Positions 6,245 to 27,745 of a stretch of 37,823 nucleotides of DNA are shown in pieces. Under the pieces are notes generated by a model. It ran no database searches, had not been told where the DNA came from, and saw only the letters and a program-made list of their open reading frames with translations. The stretch covers positions 1 to 37,823 of the forward strand of contig NZ_JAEPKU010000027.1 in assembly GCF_016652235.1 (NCBI RefSeq), read 5' to 3'. The position numbers and the translations under genes are program-made. Source of the DNA: Dysgonomonas sp. Marseille-P4677. GTDB taxonomy: Bacteria > Bacteroidota > Bacteroidia > Bacteroidales > Dysgonomonadaceae. Numbering within the stretch: position 1 is the first letter of the stretch; each line of letters begins with the position of its first letter.

Positions 6245-9223
6245 ATGCTTAAAGTACAAATTTACAAAAAAGGGATGACTCGCACTTGGGTCGTCCTTGC
6301 ATTATTATTGCTAAACTGTACGTTGGTATTTGCCCAAAATAAGGTCACAGGCCGAGTTGTCGACAATACAGGCGAACCCTTAGTCGGAGTCAGTATTGTA
6401 GAAAAAGGAACTACTAATGGCATTATGAGCGATATCGACGGTAACTTCTCTCTTAATGTAGCACAGGGCAGTATTATACAACTTTCATTTATAGGTTTTA
6501 AAACACAAGAGATTAAAGCTACAAGTTCATTCATGTCTGTAATACTAGAGGGAGATGACAATTTTTTAGACGAGGTAATTGTTGTGGGCTATGGCAAAAT
6601 GACTCGCAAAGATTTGACAAGTTCTATTACAACAATTAAAGCAGATGAACTGAACAAAGGTGGAGTTTATACATCTCCGGGGCAACTTTTACAAGGTAAA
6701 GTTCCCGGACTGACTATTACAACAAGTAGCAACCCTACAGCCACACCGTCTTTGACTCTACGCGGAGCATCCTCATTCAGAGGAGGAGAAGCTCAAGAGC
6801 CATACTATGTAATTGATGGTATACCCGGAGCCTCGATAGCATTAGTTGCTCCGGATGACATTGAATCAATCGATGTTTTAAGAGATGCTTCTGCTACTGC
6901 CATTTACGGTTCGAAAGCAGCAAATGGAGTTATTATTATTACAACTAAAAAAGGTAACAGTGGAGCGGCAAATGTAACTTACAGTGCATACATGGCTGTA
7001 GATCAGGTATCCAACAGATGGGAGCTATTAGATGCCGAACAACATCGTAAAATCCTAGATGACAACGGTCTGACTCTAGGATCGTCCAATTATATAGATA
7101 AAGACACAAATACTAACTGGCAAAAAGAAGTTCAGCGTACAGGTTTTTCCCACAATCACAATATTTCTATTCTCGGAGGAAGTGAAAAGACGAATTATTC
7201 TGTTTCGCTCAACTATTTGGATAATAAAGGGATCATTAAAAATTCGGAATTAGATCGCACGACCGCCCGCATGAATCTAAATACTAAAACATTGGAAAAT
7301 CGTTTAGATTTAGGTTTTAGTTTGAATGCAAGTATTACAAATAGTAAATATATACAAGCCGGCAACGAGGGGCTGAATGTACTGGACGCCATGACGTATT
7401 ACTTACCTGAGTCTCCCGTTTATAATAAAGATGGAAGTTACTTCGAAAATCTGGATAATGGTCAATACTACAATCCTGTTGGGTTGCTTAATCAAAACTC
7501 AGACGATGTTCGTCGAAAACGTATTCAAGGTATTGGTACGGCGTCTTTGCACCTTATTCCTGAAGAACTTGTTTTATCCGGTAATCTCTCATACCAATCC
7601 GACAATGAAAATATAAGCCGTTATAATGATATAAAATCTAAAGTCAAACAAAATGTTGGAGGATTTGCTCTTCGTTATACAAATGAAGATATCCAAAAAA
7701 ACGTTGAAATATATGCTAACTATAACAAAACACTCAATAATATCCACAAAATAGGATTTATGCTTGGATACTCTTGGGAAGAAAGAAACACCGGTGACGG
7801 ATTTCAGTCTACCGATCAATATTTTTCATCAGATGCCTTAGGCTACTACGGCTTGGGAACCGGCAGCTATGAGAATAGAATAGACTATGGATCGTCTTCA
7901 TACAAAACACAAAAATCTATTTCATTCTTCGGACGTGCCAATTATTCATTCAATAGCAAATACTTACTACAAGCCACTATCAGAAGAGACGGATCTTCGG
8001 CCTTTGGCGAAAACAATCGTTGGGGTACATTCCCTTCCGGATCATTGGCATGGAGAATGAATGAGGAGAACTTTATCAAGAATTTAAATATCTTCAGCGA
8101 TCTAAAATTTCGTATAGGCTATGGAGTCAGTGGTAACAGTCTTGGTTTCGATCCATATATATCTCGTGTTCTGTATGATAAAAATGGAACATTCATCAAC
8201 TCGAGTGGAGAAACCGTAAGTGCTATCGGAGCAGTACGGAATGCGAATCCGAACTTGAAGTGGGAAAGGACTTCAATGATTAACGTTGGACTGGATTTCG
8301 GCTTCTTTAATAATAGACTGACTGGTACAGTCGAATATTATGACAAAAGAACGGACGATCTCATTGCCGATTATGAAGTACCTACAACCGAATACTTAGT
8401 TTCATGGTTAACTACCAATGTTGGAGAAATCAGTAACAAAGGTATCGAAGTTACACTAAATGCCACTCCTATCATGACTGATAAATTTACTTGGAATACA
8501 AGTTTGAACGTATCGCACAATAAAAATAAGGTAGTAAGTCTATCAAATGATAACTTTGCAAAAGAATATATAGATAAAGCTGAATTGAACGCGGCAGGAC
8601 AGACAGGCGCACATCAGCAGCGTATTGTAGAAGGAGAACCTTTAGGTTCATTCTATACATGGAAATGGGCAGGCTATAACGAAAATGGAATTTCTCAGTT
8701 CTACACTAAAGACGGCGGCGTTACACTAACCCCATCCGATCAGGATCGTTTCTTAACAGGCTCAGCTCAGCCTAAATTAAACTTTGGGTGGAAAAATACA
8801 TTGACCTATTCTAATTGGACTTTAGATATGTTTTTCACAGGTATCATGGGCAACGATATACTCAATTCGAGTCGTGCTAGCCTTTCTCGTGTAGCCGACA
8901 TTACTCGACGGAATATGCTTGTTAGTGCTAGTCACAGCGAAAAAATGACAGATACAAACTCCCATTTCCTATCTGACCGATATATCGAAAAGGGAGATTA
9001 TCTTCGTTTAGCAAGTTTGTCAATGGGATATACATTTGAGAAAATCAGTAAACATATTAAGAATTTGCGTGTGTATGCCTCTTGTAATAATGTTTTTGTA
9101 ATTACGGGATACAAAGGTCTCGATCCGGAAATTAACCTGGGAGGAACTGAACCGGGTATTGATAATAGAAACTTTTATCCTAAAACTCGCACATTTATGT
9201 TTGGGACCAGTATTACATTTTAA
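6245..9223 (+). CDS. SusC/RagA-family TonB-dependent outer-membrane transporter
   Basis: Outer-membrane importer for a glycan, probably fucose-containing given the GH95 enzyme downstream. I place the start at ATG 6245 (992 residues, MLKVQIYKKG); an in-frame TTG at 6227 would add six residues without improving the signal peptide. The order is: signal peptide ending near VFA-Q, carboxypeptidase-regulatory-like domain (VTGRVVDNTGEPLVGVSI), TonB-box-like DEVIVVGYG, plug with YYVIDGIPG and VLRDASATAIYGSKAANGVI, then a beta-barrel ending in FGTSITF. The partner SusD starts 21 bases after the stop. It is divergent from another SusC operon, and a palindrome and promoter-like box lie in its upstream region. 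Confidence 0.96.
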   Translation: MLKVQIYKKGMTRTWVVLALLLLNCTLVFAQNKVTGRVVDNTGEPLVGVSIVEKGTTNGIMSDIDGNFSLNVAQGSIIQLSFIGFKTQEIKATSSFMSVILEGDDNFLDEVIVVGYGKMTRKDLTSSITTIKADELNKGGVYTSPGQLLQGKVPGLTITTSSNPTATPSLTLRGASSFRGGEAQEPYYVIDGIPGASIALVAPDDIESIDVLRDASATAIYGSKAANGVIIITTKKGNSGAANVTYSAYMAVDQVSNRWELLDAEQHRKILDDNGLTLGSSNYIDKDTNTNWQKEVQRTGFSHNHNISILGGSEKTNYSVSLNYLDNKGIIKNSELDRTTARMNLNTKTLENRLDLGFSLNASITNSKYIQAGNEGLNVLDAMTYYLPESPVYNKDGSYFENLDNGQYYNPVGLLNQNSDDVRRKRIQGIGTASLHLIPEELVLSGNLSYQSDNENISRYNDIKSKVKQNVGGFALRYTNEDIQKNVEIYANYNKTLNNIHKIGFMLGYSWEERNTGDGFQSTDQYFSSDALGYYGLGTGSYENRIDYGSSSYKTQKSISFFGRANYSFNSKYLLQATIRRDGSSAFGENNRWGTFPSGSLAWRMNEENFIKNLNIFSDLKFRIGYGVSGNSLGFDPYISRVLYDKNGTFINSSGETVSAIGAVRNANPNLKWERTSMINVGLDFGFFNNRLTGTVEYYDKRTDDLIADYEVPTTEYLVSWLTTNVGEISNKGIEVTLNATPIMTDKFTWNTSLNVSHNKNKVVSLSNDNFAKEYIDKAELNAAGQTGAHQQRIVEGEPLGSFYTWKWAGYNENGISQFYTKDGGVTLTPSDQDRFLTGSAQPKLNFGWKNTLTYSNWTLDMFFTGIMGNDILNSSRASLSRVADITRRNMLVSASHSEKMTDTNSHFLSDRYIEKGDYLRLASLSMGYTFEKISKHIKNLRVYASCNNVFVITGYKGLDPEINLGGTEPGIDNRNFYPKTRTFMFGTSITF

Positions 9224-13686: not shown

Positions 13687-15738
13687 TTAAGAAGACATAT
13701 TTTGAAACGTATCTAACATCTCCATCTGGCCTTGGGAGTAATTAAGCCCTAATAAATAATTGTAGGTAGTACGTCCTCTTACCACAATTCTTCTGTTCAG
13801 AGGAATCTTACCATAAACGTCAAGAAAATTATCGACACCAGAAGGTGATGTAAAAACCAAAGTATCTATAAGGGTAAGATCTACTTTCTCCGGCTGTATT
13901 GGTTTCGTGTTTCGATAAGCTATTACACTTACCACCGACAGTCCTATTTCTCGAAGTCCTCTTGGAATTATTTCCAATGCCAAATCAGAGCGCGGGACTA
14001 AAACACAACCCTTTATATCATTATCTTTGAAAAGTTGTACAACACCTTCCGAATCCTCTATTTGAGCTTTGAAATCAGCTATTATACCATACTTCAACAG
14101 TTCATTGGAGGTAGTGTTACCTATCGAAAATACCTTCATGTGCTGTAATGATCGACTATCTTTTCCTTGCTTTATTAATTGCGTAAAGAAATAATGAACT
14201 GCATTTCTACTTGTAAAAAGTATATGATCAAATTCATCCATACGATTTATGGCTAAGATTAATTCTTCGTTATTTTCAAGTGGTTGTATATCAATTAACG
14301 GTGTATGGACTACCTGGCCCAGATGTTTGTACGGCTGAATATCGAGACCAGTTACAAGAACCTTTTTTTGTGGATGTATTTCTTTAGCTGCTTTAAATCT
14401 GAGATTTACAACTTTACCTATTATAATGATTATCGGCGTGGGAAATTGTATTTCTTCTTCTATAATATTATTCAAGGTATAGAAGAATTCTTTTTGATCG
14501 GGCATAGATACATTATAGATTAATGCTACAGGTGTATTCTCATCCCAGCCTTGTCCTATCATTTTCTCTGCAATTGCCTTAATCCTTGTTCCGGCCATGT
14601 AAAAAACTAAGGTATCTGCCTTTGGAACTTGCAACCCATATAAAGCGTGTCCTGAAACAATGGCAACAGACGATGCAATTTCCCTGTGCGTCAGGGGTAT
14701 CTTACATAAGGAGGCTACTGCATTTACTGTTGAAATACCGGGTATAACTTCTACATTTATAAGGTTACTTTGAAGAAACTCAACTTCTTCGCCACCATGA
14801 GCGAATATCATTGGATCTCCTCCCTTTAATCTTACAACTGTCTTACCTTCAAAAGCGCTATTTAACATTAGAAGATTAATGTCGCTTTGTTCTTTCGCAT
14901 GTACATTTTTTCGCTTACCCACATAAATCAATTTGCTCTCTTTTAATGTCGACATAACCGATTTATCGATAAGATCATCATAATATATAACATCTGCCTC
15001 ATCTAAAACCTTCCTCCCCTTTATAGTCATTAAATCAGCATTTCCGGGTCCAGCCCCAATCAAATAAACTTTCCCAAAATTTACACGTATATCAATTTTA
15101 TTAAATATCTCAATCAGGTCTTTTCTTCCACTTTTGGCGACAACAGCAAGCGCACCTTGCAAAGGATGCGTTTTGAATGGTAATATCTCCGATATCCGAT
15201 ATTCGAGCCCAAGTCTTTTCAATGCACATGTAGCAACAACAACAGCATCATAATCTCCGTTATCGGTTTGCCTGATTCTTTCTTCTATCGTTCCACGTAT
15301 ACCCTTTAAAGTCAAATTGGGATTTAAAGACTCCAGTTCTTGCTTTCTTTTAACAGAACTTGTTCCTATTATAGTTCCGACAGCCAATTCCTGTAACTTC
15401 GTCACAGATAATCCTTCTCTGCAAACAAGCGAATCACTATTGTCCAACCTTTGGGTAAGCGCTATAATCTCTAACCCTTCGGGCAGAGGATAAGGAAGAT
15501 CTTTTGCCGAATGAATGGCTATGTCTGCATCTTCGTCTAAAATCATATCATCCAATTCTTTTGTGAAAAAATCAGGACGAATATTACCATCCAACAGGGA
15601 GATATCCTTATGATTGTCGCCAAAGGAGGTCAACGTAATAAGCTCATATTCATCACTCCCCAAGAGATTAAAGACTTCTTCTACTTGTTTTATAGCAAGA
15701 TTGCTTTGGCGGCTGACAACTATTAGTTTGTTTTCCAT
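13687..15738 (-). CDS. HemC-CobA-HemD fusion: HMBS-like, uroporphyrinogen-III methyltransferase, uroporphyrinogen-III synthase
   Basis: Three tetrapyrrole enzymes in one 683-residue chain. Residues 1-222 match hydroxymethylbilane synthase (SRQSNLAIKQ with Arg10, FTKELD with Lys60, HSAKD with Asp80, GTSSVKR, GIRGTIEER, ALKRLGLE). Residues about 223-458 are the SAM-dependent methyltransferase making precorrin-2 (GAGPGNADLMTIKG, VVRLKGGDPMIFAHGGEE, PLTHRE). Residues about 465-675 are uroporphyrinogen-III synthase (LFTSRNAV, VFTSPSGVDNFLD). The HemC part ends where domain 3 should begin: the conserved GGC(Q)VPIG segment with the cofactor-binding cysteine is absent, and the only cysteines in this part are 106 and 171. 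The middle and last domains look complete. The first could be inactive or work differently. It is the last gene of the riboswitch operon, 2 bases after the preceding stop. Confidence 0.92.
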   Translation of the reverse strand: MENKLIVVSRQSNLAIKQVEEVFNLLGSDEYELITLTSFGDNHKDISLLDGNIRPDFFTKELDDMILDEDADIAIHSAKDLPYPLPEGLEIIALTQRLDNSDSLVCREGLSVTKLQELAVGTIIGTSSVKRKQELESLNPNLTLKGIRGTIEERIRQTDNGDYDAVVVATCALKRLGLEYRISEILPFKTHPLQGALAVVAKSGRKDLIEIFNKIDIRVNFGKVYLIGAGPGNADLMTIKGRKVLDEADVIYYDDLIDKSVMSTLKESKLIYVGKRKNVHAKEQSDINLLMLNSAFEGKTVVRLKGGDPMIFAHGGEEVEFLQSNLINVEVIPGISTVNAVASLCKIPLTHREIASSVAIVSGHALYGLQVPKADTLVFYMAGTRIKAIAEKMIGQGWDENTPVALIYNVSMPDQKEFFYTLNNIIEEEIQFPTPIIIIIGKVVNLRFKAAKEIHPQKKVLVTGLDIQPYKHLGQVVHTPLIDIQPLENNEELILAINRMDEFDHILFTSRNAVHYFFTQLIKQGKDSRSLQHMKVFSIGNTTSNELLKYGIIADFKAQIEDSEGVVQLFKDNDIKGCVLVPRSDLALEIIPRGLREIGLSVVSVIAYRNTKPIQPEKVDLTLIDTLVFTSPSGVDNFLDVYGKIPLNRRIVVRGRTTYNYLLGLNYSQGQMEMLDTFQNMSS

Positions 15739-15740
15739 GA

Positions 15741-16211
15741 CTATTCTATTATATTTTCTATTTTCAATATATTATTTTCTATTAGCTGCTGTATTTGATT
15801 GCGGATAAATATTGCTTTTAAAGGATTGTTCCCATTTGTTCCAACCGATATTGTAACATCATCATTCTTATAGATCGCCGGAGTTACAAACGAAGACATA
15901 TCCGGATTGTCGCAAACAGAATATAAAATATTCTTTCGTTGACACTCTATCCCTATCTCCTTATTTATCTCCGCATTGTCGGTACAAGCATAAACCATGA
16001 AGAAATCGTCGACCGTACCAGCCTTGTATTCCCGCCTAATAAATCGGAAGGGATATTCCATCAACTCATTTGTGATATGGGGTGCTAGAATTGTGACACG
16101 GGAGGTAAAACGATATATGCCTTTAGCCTTCAACAGAGCAGCTTTACCTCCACCTATAATCAATATATTTTTGTTATTGATATTTACCAAAAAGGGAACA
16201 AACTGTTTCAT
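15741..16211 (-). CDS. Precorrin-2 dehydrogenase (Met8/CysG N-terminal-like), siroheme synthesis
   Basis: Probable NAD-dependent oxidation of precorrin-2 to sirohydrochlorin, possibly also iron or cobalt insertion. The 156-residue product has a Rossmann-type nucleotide motif IIGGGKAALLKA (residues 18-29), a VYACTDN segment, and SVCDNPDMSSFVTPAI, in which Asp101 matches the acidic residue shown to matter in CysG and Met8p. It ends about 50-60 residues earlier than typical Met8-type proteins, so most of the C-terminal helical region is missing. It uses the product of the methyltransferase domain encoded immediately downstream; only 2 bases separate the genes. A partial enzyme lacking chelatase activity is possible. 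Confidence 0.88.
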   Translation of the reverse strand: MKQFVPFLVNINNKNILIIGGGKAALLKAKGIYRFTSRVTILAPHITNELMEYPFRFIRREYKAGTVDDFFMVYACTDNAEINKEIGIECQRKNILYSVCDNPDMSSFVTPAIYKNDDVTISVGTNGNNPLKAIFIRNQIQQLIENNILKIENIIE

Positions 16212-16221
16212 TCTTTATTTT

Positions 16222-17688
16222 TTATATTCTTATTTTATGAAATAGGTCTTTTAATTGCACTACTTGGTTTAGCTTATATAAAGAGTAACCTAATGATACA
16301 GAAATGGATAGAAAGCCGATTAAGAAGATATTGACACTGCTGTATTGTACAAAATAGAAAGTAAGAACTATCAATGTAAGACAAAAACCAGCCGTCGTCA
16401 GATTGCTTTTTGTCCATCGAAAACCGAATAGTTTTCTGATTAGCAGATACACAATAAGCAAATAAGAGACATAAGCAATCATATAAGCTATGCCCACAGA
16501 ATCAAGTTGATAGTATGGAAAAAGTATATAAATACAAACAAGATAAATAATACTATATGAAGTATCAGATATAAAAAACATTAATCCTTTTCCTCTAGCG
16601 AGTAAAACAAAACTCAATGCCCATGAAATGACTTTAAAGAATATCCCTATAGTCCTCCAATTAAGTAGTGTATATGCGGTTTCGAAATTAGCGGAATACA
16701 ATAAAGACAAAAGTAACTTAGATGCCAGCAACAGAAATATAATGACAGGCAATGAAATGATCAATATTATGTAGACCTGCTCATTTATGAGTTTCCTTAT
16801 TTTCCTATTATCAAAGCTTATAATACTTAGTCTGGGATAGAAATCGGCACTCATTGATTTTAAAATCAAGGTCAGATATACATTTGTAATAGTCCATGCA
16901 GCTTGTAGCAATCCAAGTTGTTCCAATCCGATTCTATTAATAACCATCGACCTCACAACAAACAGGGTTATCTGGGTCTGTATTGCTGCTAAAACAATAA
17001 AAAAGCCGATACGCAGGATGAATTTACCCTTCGTTAAGAGCTGATGGAACGGAATAGATACAATATTTACATTTATCTTTTTCCGATAATACAGAGTACT
17101 CAAATAAGTAATTATACTGACAATAATAAAAACAGGTATGATTGCATCTATGCCAAACGTATAATATAATGGGGTGAGAAATATCAATGCGGAAATATTC
17201 CAGATAAGACCGGACTTGATCATATATCCGATTTGTCTCAACCCCTGCAATATGACAAGTTCTCCTACAGCAAGAATATTGAAAAAGAGACTGATCGCCA
17301 ACCATGCTATATGTGTGGAATACGATTCAGAGTCAAAGGCCCAAATGCTAATTTGAGAACTTAGAATTATACATATTATAGTAGCAGACATAGCAAGTAT
17401 AAGAGACCATCGGTGTATCACAGAAACAGTAAAGACCAGTTCTTTCTTATTGTTCGAAGCAACCGAAATCTCGCGCACACCTGTTGTGTCTAACCCCAGA
17501 CTGGCCATTGATTTTATGAGATCGAGAGTCGATTGATACATACTGATCAAGCCCATTCCCATAGCCCCTAAGAAAATGGCGATTAGCTTATTCCGAACAA
17601 TCCCAATCAGAATATTTACAATCTGAGCTCCACCAAACATCCCGGTAGAACGCACAATCTGAGAATATGATTTTTTTATATTATTCAC
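16222..17688 (-). CDS. Wzx-like polysaccharide flippase (MOP superfamily)
   Basis: Integral membrane protein of 488 residues with about 12-14 hydrophobic segments. The N-terminus (STGMFGGAQIVNILIGIVRNK, then GAMGMGLISMYQSTLDLI) is typical of the O-antigen translocase/Wzx branch, which flips lipid-linked oligosaccharides across the inner membrane. The start is a GTG at 17688; an in-frame stop lies close upstream, so no ATG start is available. An 8-codon frame (MNSLQHRE) begins at the PepSY stop in a TAATG overlap and ends just past this GTG, which may couple translation. Its place between heme-related genes is odd, since no glycosyltransferase or polysaccharide gene is nearby. A role in moving a tetrapyrrole or other amphipathic molecule is speculation. 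Confidence 0.88.
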   Translation of the reverse strand: MNNIKKSYSQIVRSTGMFGGAQIVNILIGIVRNKLIAIFLGAMGMGLISMYQSTLDLIKSMASLGLDTTGVREISVASNNKKELVFTVSVIHRWSLILAMSATIICIILSSQISIWAFDSESYSTHIAWLAISLFFNILAVGELVILQGLRQIGYMIKSGLIWNISALIFLTPLYYTFGIDAIIPVFIIVSIITYLSTLYYRKKINVNIVSIPFHQLLTKGKFILRIGFFIVLAAIQTQITLFVVRSMVINRIGLEQLGLLQAAWTITNVYLTLILKSMSADFYPRLSIISFDNRKIRKLINEQVYIILIISLPVIIFLLLASKLLLSLLYSANFETAYTLLNWRTIGIFFKVISWALSFVLLARGKGLMFFISDTSYSIIYLVCIYILFPYYQLDSVGIAYMIAYVSYLLIVYLLIRKLFGFRWTKSNLTTAGFCLTLIVLTFYFVQYSSVNIFLIGFLSISVSLGYSLYKLNQVVQLKDLFHKIRI

Positions 17689-17706: not shown

Positions 17707-19191
17707 TTATAATAGAAAATTCCAATATTGTTTGTATCGCTTAATTTCCCGTTTCAAGAACTTAAAACCTAAATAAACTCCCGTTATAGAGACTATTGTA
17801 CCTCCTATCATAGAAACCCACATCAGGATATTCCATAGTATCGGCCGATCTAAAAAATATTTTACTGAAAAGCTGTGAAGAGCCTGATAGGTCCATTTCC
17901 GAACTTTCATATTGATATTGAGATAGCGAGTTTCTGTAGTTTTAGGATCTATATAATAGAGACTCTCGTCCGAATCGTCAACTATAATTTTATATACAGG
18001 GAGTGAATATGTATGTCTTTTATGAATATAATAGTTATCATAATCATTCATCAATTCGATATTAATTACTCTGTCGGGATGGATCTTGCTTATCTTATTT
18101 CTGATGTCATTCTCTGAGAGATATAATTCTTTTATATCATCCGAAGAAGTTGCATCTAAATAGAAAAGACTATCGTTTACAACTGCTTTGTAATATGGTA
18201 TATTTCCAAACATACACCATTCTAATTTCTGAATTTTACCATTGTATGCCACTAAAACATCTTTGTAATCTAAGGGATATTTGTCAGGAGGAATAACCAA
18301 CGGATTTTGATTTGCATTTGTAACTAATTCAGGATTATGAGTCTTAATAATCCATTGAGGAACTTTTTGTAAAGACATCATTCCACTGAAAGCAAAAGTA
18401 AAAATAACCGCCCCGAAAACAAAGCCTAGAATATGATGCCATTTATAAATTGATTTATATGGGCTTTTTAATTCTTTTTTTCTTTTATATCGCTTATAAA
18501 AACTTCGAAATGCTATTATAATACCCGTAACGCACACAAGAGAACTAATACCTGACAAACCAATCACAATTACTTTCCACAAGCCGGTATAATGTCTTAG
18601 ATCTGCAATATATAGCCAATGAGGAATAGCTCCTACCCATGCCCAGAAGCGGCTATCGGAATTGGTATATTGTATACCCTCACCGGTTTTCGACGAAACG
18701 TATAATTCTGATTCGTCTTCGTCTTGAAAATAAAACTTATAAAGAGGAAAATCCGCATAATGCTTATCGTAGGGTACCCATCGGTCAAGTTTTTTGAGGG
18801 TATCAACTTTTAAGACAGGAAAACTATTTACTTTGGATGCATAAGACTGTATATTGGAAAAACTTTGTCGATTAGTAAATTGTCCTAATCCATCAACTAT
18901 AAAATAATTATCTTCTGTTTTATATTCTATTTGAAATCCACCTTTAGTGCTTGATTTGAGCAGGAAAGATTCAATTCGCTGACCAGAAGATGATAAATCA
19001 GCTATTAAACTATCCATATCATTTCCCAAAATAGTGTCGATCTGTGCTAATCCTCTATACTTCTCGATATTATTTATTTTAGGGAAATTATGATAAATCA
19101 TAACAAATCCCGTTAAAAACCATAGCAAAAACAGGATACTGAGTATTGTTCCCAGCATCCTGTGAAATTTATATATAAATTTCTTCAGCAT
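17707..19191 (-). CDS. PepSY-associated transmembrane protein (putative ferric-chelate reductase-like)
   Basis: Inner-membrane protein of 494 residues with four likely membrane spans: about 10-32, 205-228, 255-275 and 455-478. Membrane-proximal histidines are conserved as in the PepSY_TM family (FHRMLG near residue 10, KWHHILG near 250, ALHSF near 440). These proteins often sit beside TonB-dependent siderophore receptors and are thought to reduce or help release chelated metal in the periplasm; that role is known for few members and is inferred here. Its ATG follows the receptor stop codon with no gap (TAG then ATG), so the two are translationally linked. It belongs to the cobalamin-riboswitch operon, which suggests a cobalt- or tetrapyrrole-related cargo as an alternative to iron. 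Confidence 0.88.
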   Translation of the reverse strand: MLKKFIYKFHRMLGTILSILFLLWFLTGFVMIYHNFPKINNIEKYRGLAQIDTILGNDMDSLIADLSSSGQRIESFLLKSSTKGGFQIEYKTEDNYFIVDGLGQFTNRQSFSNIQSYASKVNSFPVLKVDTLKKLDRWVPYDKHYADFPLYKFYFQDEDESELYVSSKTGEGIQYTNSDSRFWAWVGAIPHWLYIADLRHYTGLWKVIVIGLSGISSLVCVTGIIIAFRSFYKRYKRKKELKSPYKSIYKWHHILGFVFGAVIFTFAFSGMMSLQKVPQWIIKTHNPELVTNANQNPLVIPPDKYPLDYKDVLVAYNGKIQKLEWCMFGNIPYYKAVVNDSLFYLDATSSDDIKELYLSENDIRNKISKIHPDRVINIELMNDYDNYYIHKRHTYSLPVYKIIVDDSDESLYYIDPKTTETRYLNINMKVRKWTYQALHSFSVKYFLDRPILWNILMWVSMIGGTIVSITGVYLGFKFLKREIKRYKQYWNFLL

Positions 19192-21618
19192 CTATTTCAA
19201 ACTATATGATAGCGATATAGTATAATTACGCCCAATGCTAGGTATTATTTGTCTCCCGAATGTATTTGTCGCATAATGCTTATCGAATATATTATTCAGG
19301 TTTGCCGAAATAGTAACGCCATTATTTAGTGCATACGAGGCTCCTAAATCTGTAATAAAATGTGATGGCAAGACAACATCCTTACTCAGATTACTATACA
19401 TTTTATCTGTATAAGATATAGTATAGCTCAAGTTCATTTTCTTTAGAAAAGTTGAACTAAATAAATAATTACCAGCAGAATAAAACATACTTCGAGGAAC
19501 ATAAGCTAACTGCACACCCTCATCAGCCTGAACATTCAGGTAAGCATTCTTCTTAATATCTCCCACTGTTGCATGAGTATATGTATATCCAAATGATAGA
19601 GACAGATTCTTAAAAGGGTTTAGCCCGGCTTCAAACTCGAAACCTTTTGACTCAGTTGTTCCGACCTGACCAACTACCGATTTTCCTTTATCCACACCTT
19701 CGTTGGTAATAGTAGTCAATGTCTTTTTTTCATTTGTCCTTTTTATATAATAGCCACTAACAGAGGCATATAGTATATCCTTATAAGAATACCGCGCTCC
19801 TACTTCCCCCTGATATCCTCGTTGAGGTTTAAATACTTCTTTACTGGTCTGAGGATCATATCTATTGCCCTCAGAATCGATATATACAGTATTTTCACTG
19901 TAAAAGTCGCGATATGGTTGAAAAAAATTAGAAAAAGAACCGTATATCGATAATGATTCGATCGGTAAATATACTAATCCGGCACGATAAGTAAAGGCTG
20001 AATTTTGTGTAGAAACATATGGTTTTGTCCTAATATATTTCCACATTCCATCTGTTACATCTTCATCTGCAACTGTTTTTTTATAGTCTACATAATCATA
20101 TCTTCCGGCCAACATTAATTTCAGTTGCTCCGATAATTCAAAGATATTTTGAAGAAATATTCCATGAATATACATTTCCGACGGATAGGCCTTACTAAAC
20201 TTTGATTTCATATACCCCATACTTTGAGGATCATGCACAGATACTTTAGAGTAAATACCCGGGCCATACACATCGTAGTTACTATTGAAACGGTCATTTT
20301 CAGGTGCTCTGTTATATCCCTTGTATGAGTCGCGAAAATATCCGACAAATGAATATCCTGCCTGATAAGCATATTTCATATTATCACCAAAATGAAGTTT
20401 ACCTGAAAACTCCAATTGGTTATTTATCATATAAGATTTGTGGGCAAATTTCATTGGGCCTCTTAACTGAACCGTGTCTAAGGTTATATATTTCTTAGAA
20501 AAGGTTTTATCACTATTTTTCACTTCATAATAGTAGTCAGATATTGCCTTATCACTAGTTAGATATGTCAAAGGCTCTGTACTGAAATAGTCCAGAATAT
20601 CATATGTATATGTAAGATTGTTATTTATGTTGAAAACATCCGATACTTTATTTGAATATATAGCAGATATATTAATTCCGTTATTGATAAAGAAGTCTGA
20701 TTCATTATTATACCGGGCTCTTCTATTCAAATTAGCTTGAGATTGTCCTTTCTTAAGAAATATGCTCCCATCCTTATTATAAATATCATTAGACATAGTT
20801 GGAGGCAGACCTACATCTGTTCCGTATCTATCTCTATTGAAACCACCTCTTAATTCTATCGATTGCCTCGGATCTATATCATATGCTAATGCCAGATAGC
20901 CTGAAAAACGCTTATCATTTGTATATCGATACCCTTCGGCATCGGCATAGTTAAATACTGTACGATAGCGTAACGATTTGTAAACAGTTCCTCCAAAATC
21001 GATCATAGCTTGTTTATTATCGTATGATCCATATGTTAGGCGCGTATTAACAATATTGGTATACGAAGGTGCTTTACGAACAACATTCAATATGCCTCCG
21101 GCAGCAAATTGTCCATGAAGAACAGAAGCAGGGCCTTTGAGTAATTCCATTGATTCTACAGATGCAAAATCGGGAAATGGAGCAGAATTACCCGGTGGAA
21201 CAAATCTTTCATCCTTAACTCCATCTATCATGATAGGCGTGACATCAAAACCTCTAACCTCGAGTCTTTGATATGCTCCGTATACTGTACGCATATGTGC
21301 TCCCGGTAAAAATTTAATTGCGTCCTGTATATGCGTAATCCCACGCATATCCCATGTTCGGGCAGACACTGTCGATACAGATATTGGAAGATAAGATAAC
21401 GGTACATCAAGACGCGTAACTTTGACCTCGTGTTTCTTCTTAGCTGTAATGGTTACTTCATTAATGGAGTGAATCGAATCTGTGATACTCTTGGTGTGTT
21501 GTGCGTAGATAGAAAAGGGTAGTAATGCCATTAGGCATAACACGTTTTTCTTAAAGGCATGACCGTGCCCATAAAAGCGTACATTTTTCATTAAAGGAAA
21601 AAATAAATTATGGTTCAT
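19192..21618 (-). CDS. TonB-dependent receptor, siderophore-receptor type, under cobalamin riboswitch
   Basis: Outer-membrane receptor of 808 residues. A long N-terminus precedes the signal core (CLMALLPFSIYA-Q, about residues 28-40). A TonB-box-like INEVTITAK follows, then a plug with SVSTVSARTWDMRGI, FLPGAHMRTVYG, LEVRGFDVTPIMIDGVKD and ELLKGPASVLHGQFAAGGI, as in the FecA/FpvA-type family, and a barrel ending in a lysine after SLSYSL. It lacks the carboxypeptidase-like domain of SusC proteins. The ATG at 21618 is supported by AGGAG six bases upstream, rare in this phylum. The riboswitch indicates repression by cobalamin, so the cargo may be a corrinoid, cobalt chelate, or heme-like compound rather than an iron siderophore. 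The sequence alone cannot decide this. Confidence 0.93.
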   Translation of the reverse strand: MNHNLFFPLMKNVRFYGHGHAFKKNVLCLMALLPFSIYAQHTKSITDSIHSINEVTITAKKKHEVKVTRLDVPLSYLPISVSTVSARTWDMRGITHIQDAIKFLPGAHMRTVYGAYQRLEVRGFDVTPIMIDGVKDERFVPPGNSAPFPDFASVESMELLKGPASVLHGQFAAGGILNVVRKAPSYTNIVNTRLTYGSYDNKQAMIDFGGTVYKSLRYRTVFNYADAEGYRYTNDKRFSGYLALAYDIDPRQSIELRGGFNRDRYGTDVGLPPTMSNDIYNKDGSIFLKKGQSQANLNRRARYNNESDFFINNGINISAIYSNKVSDVFNINNNLTYTYDILDYFSTEPLTYLTSDKAISDYYYEVKNSDKTFSKKYITLDTVQLRGPMKFAHKSYMINNQLEFSGKLHFGDNMKYAYQAGYSFVGYFRDSYKGYNRAPENDRFNSNYDVYGPGIYSKVSVHDPQSMGYMKSKFSKAYPSEMYIHGIFLQNIFELSEQLKLMLAGRYDYVDYKKTVADEDVTDGMWKYIRTKPYVSTQNSAFTYRAGLVYLPIESLSIYGSFSNFFQPYRDFYSENTVYIDSEGNRYDPQTSKEVFKPQRGYQGEVGARYSYKDILYASVSGYYIKRTNEKKTLTTITNEGVDKGKSVVGQVGTTESKGFEFEAGLNPFKNLSLSFGYTYTHATVGDIKKNAYLNVQADEGVQLAYVPRSMFYSAGNYLFSSTFLKKMNLSYTISYTDKMYSNLSKDVVLPSHFITDLGASYALNNGVTISANLNNIFDKHYATNTFGRQIIPSIGRNYTISLSYSLK

Positions 21619-21643
21619 ATTATACTCCTAACCCCGGGAATAT
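21619..21643 (-). promoter_or_regulatory. Riboswitch expression platform: P13 hairpin sequestering the ribosome-binding site
   Basis: On the minus strand ATATTCC (21643-21637) pairs with GGAGTAT (21628-21622) in a 7-bp stem with one G-U pair and an 8-nt loop. The stem contains the GGAG of the Shine-Dalgarno site of the receptor gene, six bases before its ATG. The loop carries CGGG (21636-21633), complementary to CCCG in the loop of aptamer hairpin P5 (21757-21754). This is the L5-L13 kissing pair of cobalamin riboswitches, so ligand binding should hide the ribosome-binding site. No terminator is visible, which points to translational control. Confidence 0.85.
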
Positions 21644-21654
21644 GTTAATTATAT

Positions 21655-21825
21655 AATTTGGCAGGTTTCCTGACTTGTTTCGTTTCGAGCGCCTTCCCGT
21701 TTTTAACAGTGGCATGTAGAATGCTCGAAATGGTATAATGAAACTTACAGTAGCGGGTACTGTTCCGGATTTTAACCGGATTCCCTTTTATGTAAAGGAT
21801 GAATATCCATTTACATCACCAAATC
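21655..21825 (-). ncRNA. Cobalamin (B12) riboswitch aptamer
   Basis: On the minus strand the conserved pieces appear in order: P1 arm GATTTGG pairing with CCAAATT at the other end, a strong P2 hairpin (ATGTAAA with TTTACAT), GGGAATCCGGTTAAAATCCGG, the P5 hairpin ACAGTA-CCCGC-TACTGT (21763-21747), GCCACTG (21713-21707), GGGAAGGCG, and the B12 box AGTCAGGAAACCTGCC (about 21675-21660). Spacing and order fit the classical long cobalamin aptamer. It lies 36 bases before the receptor start, and the whole five-gene operon follows in the same direction. Confidence 0.97.
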
Positions 21826-21829
21826 GTAA

Positions 21830-21837
21830 CAAAGGTA
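21830..21837 (-). promoter_or_regulatory. Candidate -7 promoter box for the riboswitch operon
   Basis: On the minus strand the bases read TACCTTTG, an exact match to TAnnTTTG. The predicted transcription start falls at about 21824, the first base pair of riboswitch stem P1, which supports the call. A TTTC lies about 18 bases upstream and could be a poor -33 element. Confidence 0.6.
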
Positions 21838-21968
21838 GCTCATTTTAGTTAAATGAAATATACAATTATGAAAAAGTTAACCAAGTATAAACCCTGTTCA
21901 ACTTAACCTACTTATTTGCAATCTACTAATTAATGTTAATTTTTCGATTTTCTAAAAAACTCTTTGCT

Positions 21969-22068: not shown

Positions 22069-22983
22069 TTAGAATGAAACGACATCTTTCCTATAAGGAA
22101 TAGATATCTGTGCCCCCATTTTAGTTACACATATTCCCGCAGCTTTATTTGCAAAGCGAATAGCATTTGCGAAAGACATATCCTCTGATAAAGCGACAGA
22201 CAGGGCACCACAAAATGTGTCTCCGGCAGCTGTTGTATCCACTGCTTTTACTTTTTCTTCAACAGGAAATTCATAGCATACTCCATCCACTTTCAGTAAA
22301 GCACCAAGCGATCCAAGGGTTATGATTACAGTGTCCACTCCCTTCTGACTAATAATATCAGCCGCTACTTTTGCACTTTCCCAATTATTAACTCTAACGC
22401 CGGATATCAATTCTGCTTCTGTAATATTAGGTATTATTACATCTATATTTTTGAATAAACTATCTGGCAAAATAGAAGCCGGAGCGGGATTTAGAATAAT
22501 TTTAACGCCTGCCTTATTAGCCATTTCGGCTGCGTATTCTACCGTTTCGAGAGGTATTTCAAGTTGCATTAAAAGAATATCTGCATTCTCTATTTCATTA
22601 CGACATTTCTCCACTTCGTCTTTAGACAAAGTTTTATTGGCCCCCGATGCCACAACAATACTGTTTTCTGCATTATTATCGACTGTTATCAGTGCCACCC
22701 CTGATGGATTGTTAGTATCTAAAAAAACATAATCTGTATTAATATTCTCATCCTGGTATAGTCTTAGTGATTGTCGGCCAAATATATCATTCCCTATTTT
22801 AGTTATAAAAGTCACATTTCCTCCCAAGCGACTGGCAGCAACAGCCTGATTAGCTCCTTTCCCTCCCGGAGTCATCATAAATTCACCTCCAATAATAGTC
22901 TCTCCCGGCACAGGTAAATGTGCAGCCTGTATTACCATATCTGTATTACAGCTACCCAGAACTATGATTTTTTTCATTTCCAT
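22069..22983 (-). CDS. rbsK: Ribokinase, second copy
   Basis: Phosphorylates ribose to ribose 5-phosphate with ATP in the cytoplasm. I place the start at ATG 22983 (MEMKKIIVLGSC, 304 residues); a longer frame to 23082 only adds 33 residues foreign to the family. PfkB-family features: PGGKGANQAVAA (substrate and lid region), PNITEAE (the N-x-x-E type magnesium motif) and DTTAAGDTFCGAL with the catalytic Asp. By eye it is about 65% identical to the kinase at 36910-37818, and the two lie at opposite ends of the gene cluster. It starts 128 bases after the neighbouring 493-residue protein and is the last gene of the ribose/nucleoside unit. Known RUS loci also carry two ribokinases. Confidence 0.93.
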   Translation of the reverse strand: MEMKKIIVLGSCNTDMVIQAAHLPVPGETIIGGEFMMTPGGKGANQAVAASRLGGNVTFITKIGNDIFGRQSLRLYQDENINTDYVFLDTNNPSGVALITVDNNAENSIVVASGANKTLSKDEVEKCRNEIENADILLMQLEIPLETVEYAAEMANKAGVKIILNPAPASILPDSLFKNIDVIIPNITEAELISGVRVNNWESAKVAADIISQKGVDTVIITLGSLGALLKVDGVCYEFPVEEKVKAVDTTAAGDTFCGALSVALSEDMSFANAIRFANKAAGICVTKMGAQISIPYRKDVVSF

Positions 22984-23111
22984 GATTCTAAATTGAATTT
23001 TAATTTGTCTTCTCACCCAATAAGGGATATACAAACCTAGCCCAAAGAGAAAAGCATACTCAATGCAAACATTACTAATCAATTACTTTACAAACCTATA
23101 GATATGAAAGA

Positions 23112-24593
23112 TTATCTCAATTTAATCAATATCCATTCCGTAAAATCAAAGACCTTCATTAACTGATGATCCTCTATACTATATTTTGTATGCATTATTT
23201 TATCTCTAAATCTTTTTTTCAATATATCTTCTTTCTCCTTAGATAGAATTTTCCATTCTATTTCTAAATAGTTAAACAGAAATTTCTCTATCTGAGTTTC
23301 TTTATTCAGTTTTTTATTTTTTCGTTTTATTGAACGAATTGTCGCTTCAATATAATCCGTATCTTCAAGCTCATAATAGATTATGAGGTTTAATAATTGT
23401 ACCGATCGAAATATTTTCAGACTGGAATAAGTATTGTTTCTAATAATGGGGGCAAGCAGTTTTCTTGCTTTTACCAAATCCTTATTCATCAGATATATTC
23501 CCGAAAGACAAATTGTTACACTCAAAAATAATCTTGGAGAGAGCAATAAAAGTTTATCTATAAGAATATCCTGATATTGATTAATCAGATTCAAACAGGT
23601 TTTATATTCTTGATTATACATATTTGGAGCTACAGAATAAAGAAAGTCTATTGCATATACTTCTAAAACCAGGCCCACAGAGGGATATTTTTCTGTTAAT
23701 AATAATAACTGTTCTCTATATGTGCGCATTTCTTCAAAGAGCCTCATCCTATTAAGGCTTTCAAGAACTCCTTCCAATATCATTACATATGATATGGGGT
23801 GATTACTCCAAATCCGCTCGTTCTTCAGATAAAGTTTATTCAATTCAGAAAAAGAATTTAGAGCGCTTTTATAGCTGCCGATGCCCATGAAATAACTTGC
23901 CTGAAAAAGTTGGTGTTGCCTATTTATCTCAAATATCTCATTTTTCAATGACGAAACCAAAGTCATCTCACTTATTAGCAGGTCATCATATACATACGAC
24001 TTATCAGTCTCGATAGATTTATGTTTTTCAATCTTGAACCGAAGCATTTCAAAAAGAAATGACTGCTCATTAATTTGCCTTATAATCTTTATATTATCAT
24101 AAATATCCTGTTCCTTTTTGTATAATTCATCTTCCTTCAGGTCATAAAAATAATCTAACGAATCACTCTTCAGCTCTTCTCTTTGAAGTGTTAATAATAG
24201 ATTATATTCACCTATGTCGCGGGCTTTTTCTTTCGTTTCCTGAATCAACGATAAGTAATCATCATAAAGCCCTCTTTCTCGTAATATTTTTGTTTTTAGA
24301 TACGAATTGTATAACTCATACTCTTTATCTTTTTTAATGCTCAAATCTACTATAACATGCAAGATAAGATCAAACAGATACTTAACATTAGCTATCAATG
24401 AAGATTCAGGATATTTCTTCTGAAAAATATTAGTAATTGAATCTTTACTTGCATACTTTTCTTTATCTATTATATCATATAAATTCAGATACAACTTATT
24501 ATCTTCTGTCTGCAAAGCATGTTGAGTTAATGCCTTTTTCTCTGATTTAGAAAGAGATTTAACCAACAGAATTAATGAAGTAAGTTTAGACAT
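23112..24593 (-). CDS. Unknown all-helical protein, paralogue 1 (493 residues)
   Basis: I do not recognise a named domain. The product is highly charged, helical throughout, and has no signal peptide or membrane span, so it is probably cytoplasmic. It begins with LILLVKSLSKSEKKAL; I recall similar starts (SLSKSEKR) in unnamed Bacteroidota proteins. The middle contains helix pairs resembling TPR units (QLFQASYFMGIGSYKSALNS; about residues 230-400), and the end is DHQLMKVFDFTEWILIKL. It matches the protein at 25064-26545 from end to end with the same length, so they arose by duplication. Both sit inside a ribose/nucleoside cluster that has no visible regulator, so a sensor or regulator role is possible but unproven. 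Confidence 0.75.
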   Translation of the reverse strand: MSKLTSLILLVKSLSKSEKKALTQHALQTEDNKLYLNLYDIIDKEKYASKDSITNIFQKKYPESSLIANVKYLFDLILHVIVDLSIKKDKEYELYNSYLKTKILRERGLYDDYLSLIQETKEKARDIGEYNLLLTLQREELKSDSLDYFYDLKEDELYKKEQDIYDNIKIIRQINEQSFLFEMLRFKIEKHKSIETDKSYVYDDLLISEMTLVSSLKNEIFEINRQHQLFQASYFMGIGSYKSALNSFSELNKLYLKNERIWSNHPISYVMILEGVLESLNRMRLFEEMRTYREQLLLLTEKYPSVGLVLEVYAIDFLYSVAPNMYNQEYKTCLNLINQYQDILIDKLLLLSPRLFLSVTICLSGIYLMNKDLVKARKLLAPIIRNNTYSSLKIFRSVQLLNLIIYYELEDTDYIEATIRSIKRKNKKLNKETQIEKFLFNYLEIEWKILSKEKEDILKKRFRDKIMHTKYSIEDHQLMKVFDFTEWILIKLR

Positions 24594-25063: not shown

Positions 25064-26545
25064 TTAATTCTCAAATTTAGAAAGCATCCATTTACGAAAA
25101 TCGAATAATTTGAGGATGCGCTGATCCTCATGGCTGATATCTAGTTGAGCCAGTTCTTCTTCGAGTTTAGCTTTCTCCTGACCTTTCTTCTCTGGAGAAA
25201 GATACCTCAAATCAGAATTGAGGAACCGAAAAAATACATTCTCGAATTTAGATGTCTTACGGCTTAAAGTATTTTTACGCTTGATAGAGCGTATTTTAGA
25301 AATGATAAGATCATAATTTCCCAATTCAAAATCAACTGCTAGATTAAGTAACTGTATAGGATGATAAAGCCATATATCTACATAACTATCACCATAAACA
25401 ATAGGAGATAATTGTTTATTTGCCGCACCATAATCTTTTCTTAGCATATGAACCTTAGCCAACATTAAAGCCAGTTGCATATTGCGATACGGAGTGAGCA
25501 GCTCTCGTTTCTGAATAAGAGATGAAGTGTATTTCGAAACTATCTCTACTGATTCTTTTTCTATACCATTATCAAGATAGGGAGCCAGACTATAAATAAA
25601 GTCTATGCAAAGTATTTCTACATCGAATGTTTGCGACGGATAATCTATACTCCGCAATTTTCTTAGAAAATAATCTAATTTATCATATTCTCTGATTGCA
25701 CGAAAACTTTGTAATATACCTTCAAGAACAGAAACATAGTAAAAAGGTGGATTGCTCCACAGAGCTTTATTGTCTACAAAGAGTTTATCCAGTTCAATAA
25801 ATGAATTGATTGCTGATTTATAGTCTCCGACATAAATCAGATAATGTCCTTGGAAAAGCTGATGCAACTTCTGAATTTCAAACACATCACGCTTGAGATT
25901 AGATACTAATGTTATTTCACTTACAATGAGATCATTCAAGAATTGTTTTTGCTTGGCTCTTTGTGATGCCGGAGTTTTCTCGATACGTAACAAGAGTAAT
26001 TCATAAAGAGAAGACTGCTCATTTATTTGCCTGATTGTCTTAAATGTATCAGACATTTTATGTTGTTTTTTCAGTAAATCTTTTTCTGAGAGATTTATAA
26101 ATCCCGAAATACGCAGGTAATCCAACTCCATACGTTCGATAGTAAGTAAAAGATGATAAAGTTCGTGTTCTTTTGCTTCTTTTTTCAGTTGTTTGAGGGT
26201 AGCATAGTAATCTTTATCCAGATTGCGTTCATATAAAAGCTTGGCCGCCATAAGCTTATTATACAAACTATATTCTTTGTTCTGTGTTACCTTGAGCTTG
26301 ACTAGAACACTCAATATAAAATCGTATAGATATTTGACTGTAGGGTGAAAATTGGTTCGGGGAAATCTGAGCGCAAACTCATTTGCCAACACCTTACCGT
26401 CTATAATCTTTTTTGACTCTATCATCTTAAATAATTCGAGATATACCTTCACTCCTGATATAAGATCAGACTGAAGGTAAATTGCTTTTTTCTCAGCTTT
26501 GCTCAAGGAATTGACCAAAAGAATCAATGCGTTAACTTTATTCAT
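25064..26545 (-). CDS. Unknown all-helical protein, paralogue 2 (493 residues)
   Basis: Same architecture as the protein at 23112-24593: an N-terminal segment ALILLVNSLSKAEKKA, long charged helices, TPR-like pairs in the middle (LFQGHYLIYVGDYKSAINSF), a conserved INEQS-L-E segment near residue 175, and a C-terminus EDQRILKLFDFRKWMLSKF. No signal peptide, membrane segment or catalytic motif is visible. It starts 33 bases after the beta-propeller lipoprotein gene, so it is likely in the same transcript as the nucleoside hydrolases. Identity to its twin is moderate, implying an old duplication with both copies kept. A regulator of the locus, or a scaffold protein, are the options I would consider; neither is shown by sequence. 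Confidence 0.75.
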   Translation of the reverse strand: MNKVNALILLVNSLSKAEKKAIYLQSDLISGVKVYLELFKMIESKKIIDGKVLANEFALRFPRTNFHPTVKYLYDFILSVLVKLKVTQNKEYSLYNKLMAAKLLYERNLDKDYYATLKQLKKEAKEHELYHLLLTIERMELDYLRISGFINLSEKDLLKKQHKMSDTFKTIRQINEQSSLYELLLLRIEKTPASQRAKQKQFLNDLIVSEITLVSNLKRDVFEIQKLHQLFQGHYLIYVGDYKSAINSFIELDKLFVDNKALWSNPPFYYVSVLEGILQSFRAIREYDKLDYFLRKLRSIDYPSQTFDVEILCIDFIYSLAPYLDNGIEKESVEIVSKYTSSLIQKRELLTPYRNMQLALMLAKVHMLRKDYGAANKQLSPIVYGDSYVDIWLYHPIQLLNLAVDFELGNYDLIISKIRSIKRKNTLSRKTSKFENVFFRFLNSDLRYLSPEKKGQEKAKLEEELAQLDISHEDQRILKLFDFRKWMLSKFEN

Positions 26546-26578: not shown

Positions 26579-27745
26579 TTATTTACTATTTTTCACGACC
26601 TGCCCTTTACGTATAAAATATGTCCATTCGGCATGCTTATTGCCTGAAGCTTCAACATCCGGAGCGGCTTTGCTTGTTGTATAATAAATTACAGGCTCTT
26701 CCCAATTACTAATTTCACCATATTGGTCACGTTCAATACCTGCATTATGATTGCGGGGAAAACCCGTCGTCTCAGGCTTGATACGTAACAGTACTTTCCA
26801 TGTTCCGGTAGAGCTTTTAAAATCATCTAACGACATATAATTCACCTCTAAGGTTTTATTCAGATATGTTGGATAATCCGTTGCATTAGGTTGGACGGGG
26901 CGTACCATCACAATCGTGTTTGCATCACGATCTATGGCAAAATCGGAATTGCAGGTATAATCTTTCTTTGTCACATCAAGCTGCATCAAACCTTTATCGA
27001 CCATATTAACAGGTGTTACCTTCTCAAAATTATCCATATCGGAAAAATCCATCTCAGCCCAAGCCAGACGAGTACCGTCGATATCACCAATGGTGTAAAC
27101 CAACATTACTTTCCCCTGCTTATCTACCGAAAGTATTGAAGGTTGTCCTACTCCCCACGATTTACCACCGTTAGGCAAAAGCTGGTCTGACGAATAAGAC
27201 CATGTTTTTTCCACTATCTGTTTCGGATATTTATCCCAGTTGTTTGCTGACAGATCGTTGCTGAAGGCGACTCCTATTTCGTTAAAATAGACAGCATAGC
27301 TATTTGTAAGATATGCCATTGCATATTTATAAGACTTGCCATTCATTTTGAAACTTCCTCCCACAACCGAAGGATCACAAATATGATGATCATCCCATGC
27401 TCCTGATGCCCCGGGCTGTACCACACTTTTTGCTTCTGATTTAGAACCGTCTGCATTCATATAGATATGATATACATTGTCTACCATTATCTGCTCCTGT
27501 GGGTTTCCACAAAAATACATGTGTACATTACCATTGTCCTCGCGTATAAGTGTAGGAGCATAAGCATATCGGCTTTGATTCTCAAATTCGAAAACAGATG
27601 TTATATTCTCAAAAGTATATGTCTGCGGCGTCGGATCAGGGTTAGGATTAGGTGCAGGATCAATTGTTTCGTTATCCTTACTACTGCAAGAAAACAGCAG
27701 TAGTAAGGATAGAGCTCTTATCAAAAAAAAACGCAATCGCTTCAT
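26579..27745 (-). CDS. Beta-propeller glycosidase-like surface lipoprotein, paralogue A
   Basis: Probable glycoside hydrolase or glycan-binding protein with a five-bladed propeller like GH43/GH32-type proteins. I use ATG 27745 (388 residues), which overlaps the preceding stop as TGATG. A lipoprotein signal ends at Cys20 (LFSC), followed by SSKDNE and a proline-rich linker (NPNPDPTP), typical of surface display. Motifs shared with the protein at 30016-31044: YAPTLIREDNG, WDDHHICDPSV, WGVGQPSI and GFPRNHNAG. The invariant Asp after Cys and the acidic residues nearby could be catalytic, but I cannot identify the full catalytic triad. In a nucleoside/ribose locus, a role in cleaving ribosides or ribofuranosyl glycans is plausible. 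The exact family remains uncertain. Confidence 0.8.
   Translation of the reverse strand: MKRLRFFLIRALSLLLLFSCSSKDNETIDPAPNPNPDPTPQTYTFENITSVFEFENQSRYAYAPTLIREDNGNVHMYFCGNPQEQIMVDNVYHIYMNADGSKSEAKSVVQPGASGAWDDHHICDPSVVGGSFKMNGKSYKYAMAYLTNSYAVYFNEIGVAFSNDLSANNWDKYPKQIVEKTWSYSSDQLLPNGGKSWGVGQPSILSVDKQGKVMLVYTIGDIDGTRLAWAEMDFSDMDNFEKVTPVNMVDKGLMQLDVTKKDYTCNSDFAIDRDANTIVMVRPVQPNATDYPTYLNKTLEVNYMSLDDFKSSTGTWKVLLRIKPETTGFPRNHNAGIERDQYGEISNWEEPVIYYTTSKAAPDVEASGNKHAEWTYFIRKGQVVKNSK

Follow-up and report, generated by a model that had tools for sequence, protein, structure and literature searches.

The window analysed here is a 37,823-nucleotide stretch of DNA from Dysgonomonas sp. Marseille-P4677 (NZ_JAEPKU010000027.1, contig C179 of a 4.73-Mb genome, G000, that is 99.95% complete). 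On its minus strand, a single open reading frame (ORF) of 683 amino acids, running from 15738 to 13687, encodes a fusion of HemC, CobA and HemD. Our analysis confirms that the HemC part consists of domains 1 and 2 only. Domain 3 (PF03900), the C-terminal domain of HemC that bears the cofactor cysteine (Cys242 in a GGC-type motif of the E. coli enzyme), is gone. On balance we favor the view that this protein is a trifunctional precorrin-2 synthase with an active two-domain HemC part, and conservation suggests that the covalent anchor for the primer has shifted from the domain 3 cysteine to Cys171. The proposal is based on sequence, namely the absence of domain 3, residue conservation, and the operon and riboswitch context. 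From these we infer HemC activity, the bond to Cys171 and the import of porphobilinogen.

The three parts of the chain are clearly recognizable. The HemC part (residues 1-221, 15076..15738, minus strand) matches PF01379 on residues 6-208 with 170.3 bits (Pfam cut-off 22.1, profile positions 2-205 of 207). It scores 166.1 bits against the TIGR00212 hemC cut-off of 164, covering only positions 1-215 of the 293 in that model. The CobA part, a uroporphyrinogen-III C-methyltransferase (residues 223-448, 14395..15072, minus strand), passes the TIGR01469 cut-off (241.8 versus 185 bits) and matches the TP_methylase family PF00590 on residues 223-422 (156.7 bits). The HemD part, a uroporphyrinogen-III synthase (residues 456-683, 13690..14373, minus strand), matches HEM4 (PF02602) on residues 474-665 (146.4 bits, cut-off 27.5). 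A preliminary description of this locus had called it a HemC-CobA-HemD trifunctional protein, and these families bear that out, on the minus strand. It had also put the HemC part at about 222 residues, leading straight into the methyltransferase. The methyltransferase glycine motif does begin at residue 228, and the median for the clade is 222. Its claim that domain 3 is absent throughout also stands, as neither a PF03900 match (Pfam) nor a GGC-type motif was found anywhere in the 683 residues.

The same truncation recurs in many other genomes. Relatives were gathered by scanning one genome per species with four short HemCs as queries, keeping the best 80 of 300. With the window and three relatives from the same order, these make 84 short rows (82 distinct sequences), which we compared with 40 full-length HemC loci (32 distinct sequences). 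Two of the rows, L064 and L111, duplicate the HemC of G030 and G037. Carriers are mostly labeled Bacteroidales and include Bacteroides propionicifaciens DSM 19291, Dysgonomonas capnocytophagoides DSM 22835, Parabacteroides sp. Marseille-P3160 and Bacteroides neonati MS4. A few records are labeled Spirochaetes, Treponema, Elusimicrobia, Babeliaceae or Termititenax. The 84 short rows group together in a tree that also includes 30 full-length and 13 viral HemCs, separated from these by a branch with 100/100 support. A pattern located the methylase motif in 71 of the 84 rows and left the other 13 unmatched; the distance from the start of the HemC match to this motif is 214-261 residues (median 222), and 214-227 in 67 of the 71. 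All 66 aligned trifunctional chains have the same three Pfam domains, with no others and no PF03900. That alignment omits 18 of the 84 rows: the three order relatives, 11 short or open chains, and L080, L092, L097 and L104. The downstream parts are broken in a few loci (L071, L112) whose HemC part is intact. Recurrence of the same cut across the 84 rows rules out an assembly artefact or frameshift.

Some carriers have only one of the two fusion partners. One chain (L102, by Pfam) has no CobA, and tblastn suggests the same for three others (L079, L099 and L113); all four are a short HemC joined to HemD and come from Paludibacteraceae metagenome-assembled genomes (MAGs). The reverse arrangement, a short HemC joined to CobA with HemD absent (Pfam), is found in a Candidatus Termititenax (L082). 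Neither partner therefore seems obligatory.

Domain 3 does not appear to be supplied by another gene. The GGC-type motif occurs in none of the 84 short ORFs and in all 40 full-length loci. A search for PF03900 found it in 0 of 50 carrier genomes (50 of the genomes of the 80 loci) and in 11 of 14 control genomes. In the host genome, a profile search returned a single PF01379 match, the window protein itself, and no PF03900; no second hemC was found there. Among 247 genomes of the order, PF01379 is found in 45, PF03900 in 39 and HemB in 46. Four of the 45 (G000, G030, G037 and G091) have the fused short HemC, each with one PF01379 match and none with PF03900. Three other genomes of the order have partial or split matches. 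In G170, the PF01379 and PF03900 parts sit on different contigs; G162 and G243, with a partial PF01379 and no PF03900, were excluded from the short rows as ambiguous. A domain 3 hidden in another gene was thus found neither in the host genome nor in the 50 carriers, and the suggestion in the preliminary description that a separate domain is supplied elsewhere is not supported. That description had named three points on which it could fall, and on each it holds: we found no domain 3 in the chain, no second hemC in the genome, and no description of a HemC truncated in this way in the open-licence literature searched.

Cys171, encoded by a TGT codon at 15226..15228 (minus strand), is the proposed new primer anchor. 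This position is Cys in 83 of the 84 short rows and in none of the 40 full-length loci (Ala in 34, Thr in 5, Val in 1). Over distinct sequences the figures are 81 of 82 and 0 of 32. Because Cys171 lies outside the scan patterns, D[FI]FT[RK]ELD and HSAKDLPY, the scan did not directly select for it; all four queries carry it. It is also the only conserved cysteine in the 66 aligned trifunctional chains (65 of 66, with the next best cysteine at 16 of 66), and it is retained in the chains that have no CobA (L102) or no HemD (L082). The preliminary description had offered another primer site, Cys106 or Cys171, as one of three options for how the protein might work. Cys106 is ruled out as the anchor, being Cys in only 3 of 84 rows; another primer site, specifically Cys171, is the best supported of the three options.

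Window Cys171 aligns with E. coli Ala172. In a published simulation of E. coli HemC, Ala172 is in contact with the pyrrole chain during stages P4M, P5M and P6M, and Ala170 is among the dipyrromethane contacts (PMC3945110). Residues two apart on a strand share one face, so the Cys171 thiol should be oriented toward the cleft. A second residue follows the same pattern. His191 is present in 81 of the 84 short rows, and all 40 full-length loci have Ala there. The joint loss of Cys171 and His191 in one row (L121) hints that the two may act as a pair; His191 alone is lost in L122 (Asn) and L068 (Gln). Other features of the clade are Ala78, Glu153, Asp56 and Glu21. Viral HemCs, of which we aligned 25 of 47 loci, give a useful contrast. 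All 25 have Cys in a GxC motif and Ala at the place of Cys171, and several of them have a much shortened domain 3.

The rest of the active site is largely preserved. The E. coli simulation lists twelve residues touching dipyrromethane (PMC3945110). At eleven of these positions, 81-84 of the 84 short rows keep the E. coli residue; the twelfth, E. coli L169, is Val, Ile or Ala in the short rows. By alignment, then, the dipyrromethane pocket of domains 1 and 2 is retained. Equivalents of Asp84, Arg11, Arg132, Arg155 and Arg176 are found in 84 of 84 short rows, as is that of Gln19; Arg149 is kept in 83, and Asn151 in only 7. The preliminary description had held that the substrate residues are mostly kept. 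This is right for the aspartate and these arginines, but E. coli Arg131 is Arg in no short row. The Lys60 it listed aligns with E. coli Lys64, and the lysines at 55 and 59 in the loop show no conservation.

We propose the following mechanism. The HemC part would polymerize four porphobilinogens without domain 3, on a pyrrole primer bound covalently by Cys171, in a stretch of domain 2 lining the cleft, in place of E. coli Cys242. His191, on the hinge, may assist the Cys171 thiol. The CobA and HemD parts would then close and methylate the HemC product, and the neighboring dehydrogenase would yield sirohydrochlorin. In many carriers, the product probably feeds siroheme synthesis for sulfite reductase. 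In the clade of the window, imported porphobilinogen would instead be turned into a corrin precursor under the control of a cobalamin riboswitch.

Gene neighborhoods across the clade argue for an active enzyme. Neighbors were called by tblastn at 45 bits or more (100 bits or more for sulfate-assimilation genes), and many of the stretches stop at contig ends. Near the 84 short HemCs, HemB was found 73 times, HemA 53, HemL 52 and Met8 56. HemA, HemB and HemL occur together at 48 of the 84 loci, with a sulfate-assimilation gene as well at 35 of those 48. Since hemA, hemB and hemL adjoin it at 48 loci, the short form should be a working hydroxymethylbilane synthase. The clearest operon is that of L043, with the gene order Met8, HemA, short HemC-CobA-HemD, HemB, HemL, CysJ, CysI, in a genome in which no other HemC was found. 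If this complete operon works at all, the short HemC must make hydroxymethylbilane. G037 has the hemA, hemB and hemL set and no other HemC that we could find. Where the operon is complete, gene content makes it very likely that the short HemC is active as a hydroxymethylbilane synthase.

A few observations on these neighborhoods concern the other early enzymes. HemB was found in 16 of the 22 genomes chosen for this search and not in the remaining six (G247, G248, G270, G271, G295 and G297). The 1.2-Mb genome G091 (L044) has HemB, the short HemC and sulfite reductase; HemA was not found in it, and it may depend on 5-aminolevulinate. The L043 HemA (7268-8155) is itself short, at 295 amino acids. 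It matches GlutR_N at positions 89-151 only, plus Shikimate_DH, and no dimerization-domain family was matched. The same shortening is seen in G030, G263, G279, G291 and G295, and all six HemA matches in the carrier genomes searched for it cover only positions 89 or 90 to 151 of 151, in open frames of 299-311 amino acids.

The window protein sits in an operon with a vitamin B12 signature. All of the operon lies on the minus strand, in the order TonB receptor, PepSY protein, Wzx-like protein, Met8 and the HemC fusion, with gaps of 0 to 18 bases. A cobalamin riboswitch (21643..21838; RF00174, 97.0 bits, gathering threshold 31.5, model positions 1-189 of 189) lies 24 bases ahead of the first start codon and points in the same direction. 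The first gene encodes a TonB-dependent receptor (19192..21618; PF00593, PF07715), 28% identical to an ORF of L197. It is followed by a PepSY-associated transmembrane protein (17707..19191; PF03929, 61 bits), which shares 43% identity with an ORF of the cbi stretch L196 and 39% with one of the cbi stretch L198. Next is a Wzx/MATE-like membrane protein (16222..17688; PF13440, PF01943). A precorrin-2 dehydrogenase of 156 amino acids, of the Met8/SirC/CysG N-terminal type (15741..16211; PF13241, 84.7 bits; TIGR01470, 90.4 bits, cut-off 62.3), ends two bases before the HemC start. The Wzx/MATE-like protein also stands beside Met8 and the short HemC, in the same gene order, in the two closest relatives, L050 (65% identical) and L051 (67% identical), over the parts present. 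L050 has a cobalamin riboswitch about 500 bases upstream of this set, and the L051 contig begins inside the set. None was found in L042, L043, L053, L072 or L096, and the one in L120 is on the opposite strand, more than 7 kb away.

The host genome and those of its close relatives look equipped for corrin synthesis. Each of the three genomes of the window clade (G000, G247 and G248) has six tetrapyrrole-methylase matches, and the corrin cluster of G000 has CbiK, CbiC, CbiG, CbiD/J and CbiA domains. By eye, the host CbiK (L195:7309-8232) has a signal-peptide-like N-terminus, and cobalt insertion may be extracytoplasmic. HemA, HemB and sulfite/nitrite reductase were not found in any of the three. 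The preliminary description had called for a search of the genome for hemC, hemA, hemL and hemB. That search found no full-length hemC, no hemB and no hemA (GlutR_N) in G000, and the best HemL match, at 141 bits, is far under the cut-off of 527. Loss of hemB through an assembly gap is unlikely, as it was found in none of the three genomes (completeness is given for G000 only). The HemC part of the window clade is still under constraint by sequence comparison. The ratios of nonsynonymous to synonymous changes (pN/pS) for pairs within this clade are 0.246, 0.275 and 0.288, versus 0.099-0.274 in seven other pairs, figures in which synonymous sites are largely saturated. Salvage of tetrapyrrole precursors, uroporphyrinogen III included, has been predicted from partial cobamide pathways (PMC8123684). 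With uroporphyrinogen imported, HemC and HemD would have nothing to do, which favors salvage of porphobilinogen. The window clade therefore probably uses salvaged, imported porphobilinogen to make precorrin-2 for vitamin B12; porphobilinogen salvage, with import read from the missing genes, appears to be the simplest explanation.

Several points weigh against our proposal. The case for Cys171 reaching the cleft comes only from alignment and from published simulations of the E. coli enzyme. E. coli Arg131, a chain contact, is not kept in any short row. The short rows are one clade, so fixation of Cys171 and loss of domain 3 count as one event and not as a repeated correlation. In one Spirochaetes MAG, L121, position 171 is Ile and position 191 is Asn; its locus has HemA, HemB, HemL and Met8 matches and its genome no PF03900. 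Should this short HemC work, Cys171 would not be strictly required. The evidence against a second PF01379 comes from the four order genomes with the fusion. In the window clade the substrate source is missing, with HemL sought in the host genome only and completeness given for G000 alone. Finally, G270 (L083) and G271 (L084) have sulfite reductase, yet neither HemA nor HemB was found in them, so that HemB loss or bin gaps extend beyond the B12 clade. These two genomes may be incomplete bins or may salvage precursors for siroheme.

Four other explanations for the short HemC across the clade can be set against a primer held by Cys171. The HemC part might be active with a primer that is bound non-covalently, or with released product serving as primer, and Cys171 might be kept for another role such as substrate activation. 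The retained dipyrromethane pocket would fit this, as would L121, which lacks Cys171 and has HemA, HemB, HemL and Met8 matches in its locus. Against it stands a cysteine present in 83 of 84 rows and alone as the conserved cysteine of 66 chains. It also has to contend with a cofactor cysteine that persists in all 40 full-length loci and in each of the 25 aligned viral HemCs, and we consider it unlikely. A covalent route with no dipyrromethane cofactor is distinctly unlikely in our estimate: the first porphobilinogen would be attached directly to Cys171, four pyrroles strung together, and the carbon-sulfur bond broken for release. If this were true, the loss of domain 3 and of E. coli Arg131 would be explained by a chain of four rings in place of six. 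So would the location of Cys171, at a site that in the simulated E. coli enzyme is touched only by the longer chains, P4M to P6M. The preliminary description had also raised a binding or scaffold domain. Here, HemC would be a non-catalytic remnant, and CobA and HemD would use uroporphyrinogen or hydroxymethylbilane from another source. That domain 3 and its cysteine are gone suits this idea, as does the failure to find HemA or HemB in the window clade, or HemL in the host genome. It is weakened by the retained catalytic residues and cofactor pocket (the Asp84, Arg11, Arg132, Arg149, Arg155 and Arg176 equivalents in 83 or 84 of 84), by the 48 loci with adjoining hemA, hemB and hemL, and by G037 with its full set and no other HemC found. 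The pN/pS values of the window clade, little above those of the other pairs, also speak against a remnant, and we rate this idea very unlikely. The least probable explanation, and a highly improbable one, is that CobA or HemD packs over the cleft in the role of domain 3, or that an unrecognized small protein does. CobA does begin directly where domain 3 would start, at a nearly constant position. However, Cys171 is kept where CobA (L102, with L079, L099 and L113 similar) or HemD (L082) is absent, no CobA or HemD cysteine is conserved in more than 16 of 66 chains, and PF03900 is in none of the 50 carrier genomes.

A separate question concerns the window clade only, where the HemC part could be idle or nearly so and the input could be external uroporphyrinogen III or sirohydrochlorin. 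This fits the missing HemB and HemA in G000, G247 and G248, and the salvage of uroporphyrinogen III predicted from partial cobamide pathways (PMC8123684). Against it, the HemC and HemD parts are constrained, Cys171 is intact in all three members, and both parts would be needless with uroporphyrinogen as the input. We regard an idle HemC part as doubtful, if credible, for these three genomes. Overall, the interpretation put forward in the preliminary description is partly supported.

Compared with canonical HemC (TIGR00212, PF01379 plus PF03900), the window form shares domains 1 and 2, the catalytic Asp, 11 of the 12 dipyrromethane contacts and most of the substrate arginines. It differs in having no domain 3, GGC motif, conserved Arg131 or conserved loop lysines, and in the fixation of Cys171 and His191. 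Four of five other short HemCs also pass the TIGR00212 cut-off; L120 does not (162.8 bits). Because the window protein passes the NCBI hemC cut-off, its annotation would give no hint that a domain is missing. A second NCBIfam model of hydroxymethylbilane synthase, NF002202 (PRK01066), has 241 positions and ends where domain 3 would begin; we take it to be chlamydial. Five short HemCs match it with 166.7-192.6 bits, from positions 18-23 to 233-235 of 241, versus 137.4 bits for one full-length HemC. The window protein (165.2 bits) and these five relatives all fall below its cut-off of 251. Short HemCs are thus already present in curated models, and they may be older and more widespread than the clade seen here.

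The window protein also resembles CobA-HemD fusions and CysG/SirA-type siroheme and precorrin-2 synthases, with which it shares the CobA part, the HEM4 part and the adjacent precorrin-2 dehydrogenase. Unlike the CobA-HemD fusions, it adds a short HemC, so that one chain would cover three successive steps from porphobilinogen to precorrin-2. Porphobilinogen salvagers with partial cobamide pathways were predicted in an 11,000-genome survey that is cited in PMC8123684. Like those, the host genome has a cobalamin riboswitch and corrin genes, and neither HemA nor HemB was found in it; the difference is that its porphobilinogen-using enzyme would be the form without domain 3. On a missing domain, the part of PMC3004389 available to us has nothing to say. 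In PMC3949521, hydroxymethylbilane synthase builds its own covalent cofactor on a cysteine termed invariant. If our proposal is true, the clade shows that two domains suffice and that the anchor is able to move. The clade offers a way to test directly how far the mechanism needs each of its elements: the covalent anchor, the six-pyrrole stage and domain movement. It also bears on the supply of precorrin-2 in Bacteroidota that have corrin genes and no early genes.

No short HemC was found in viral contigs. The 47 IMG/VR viral contigs that encode a HemC relative (L130-L176) mostly have open frames of about 250-290 amino acids, with domain 3 reduced. Elsewhere in the window, inspection by eye shows similar ribokinase-like ORFs (22069-23082 and 36910-37818) on either side of SusC/SusD-like ORFs. 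Between them are possible nucleoside hydrolases (27745-28794 and 28828-30006) and a sugar-transporter-like ORF. Two similar ORFs of 493 amino acids, also noted by eye, are adjacent to each other at 23112-24593 and 25064-26545.

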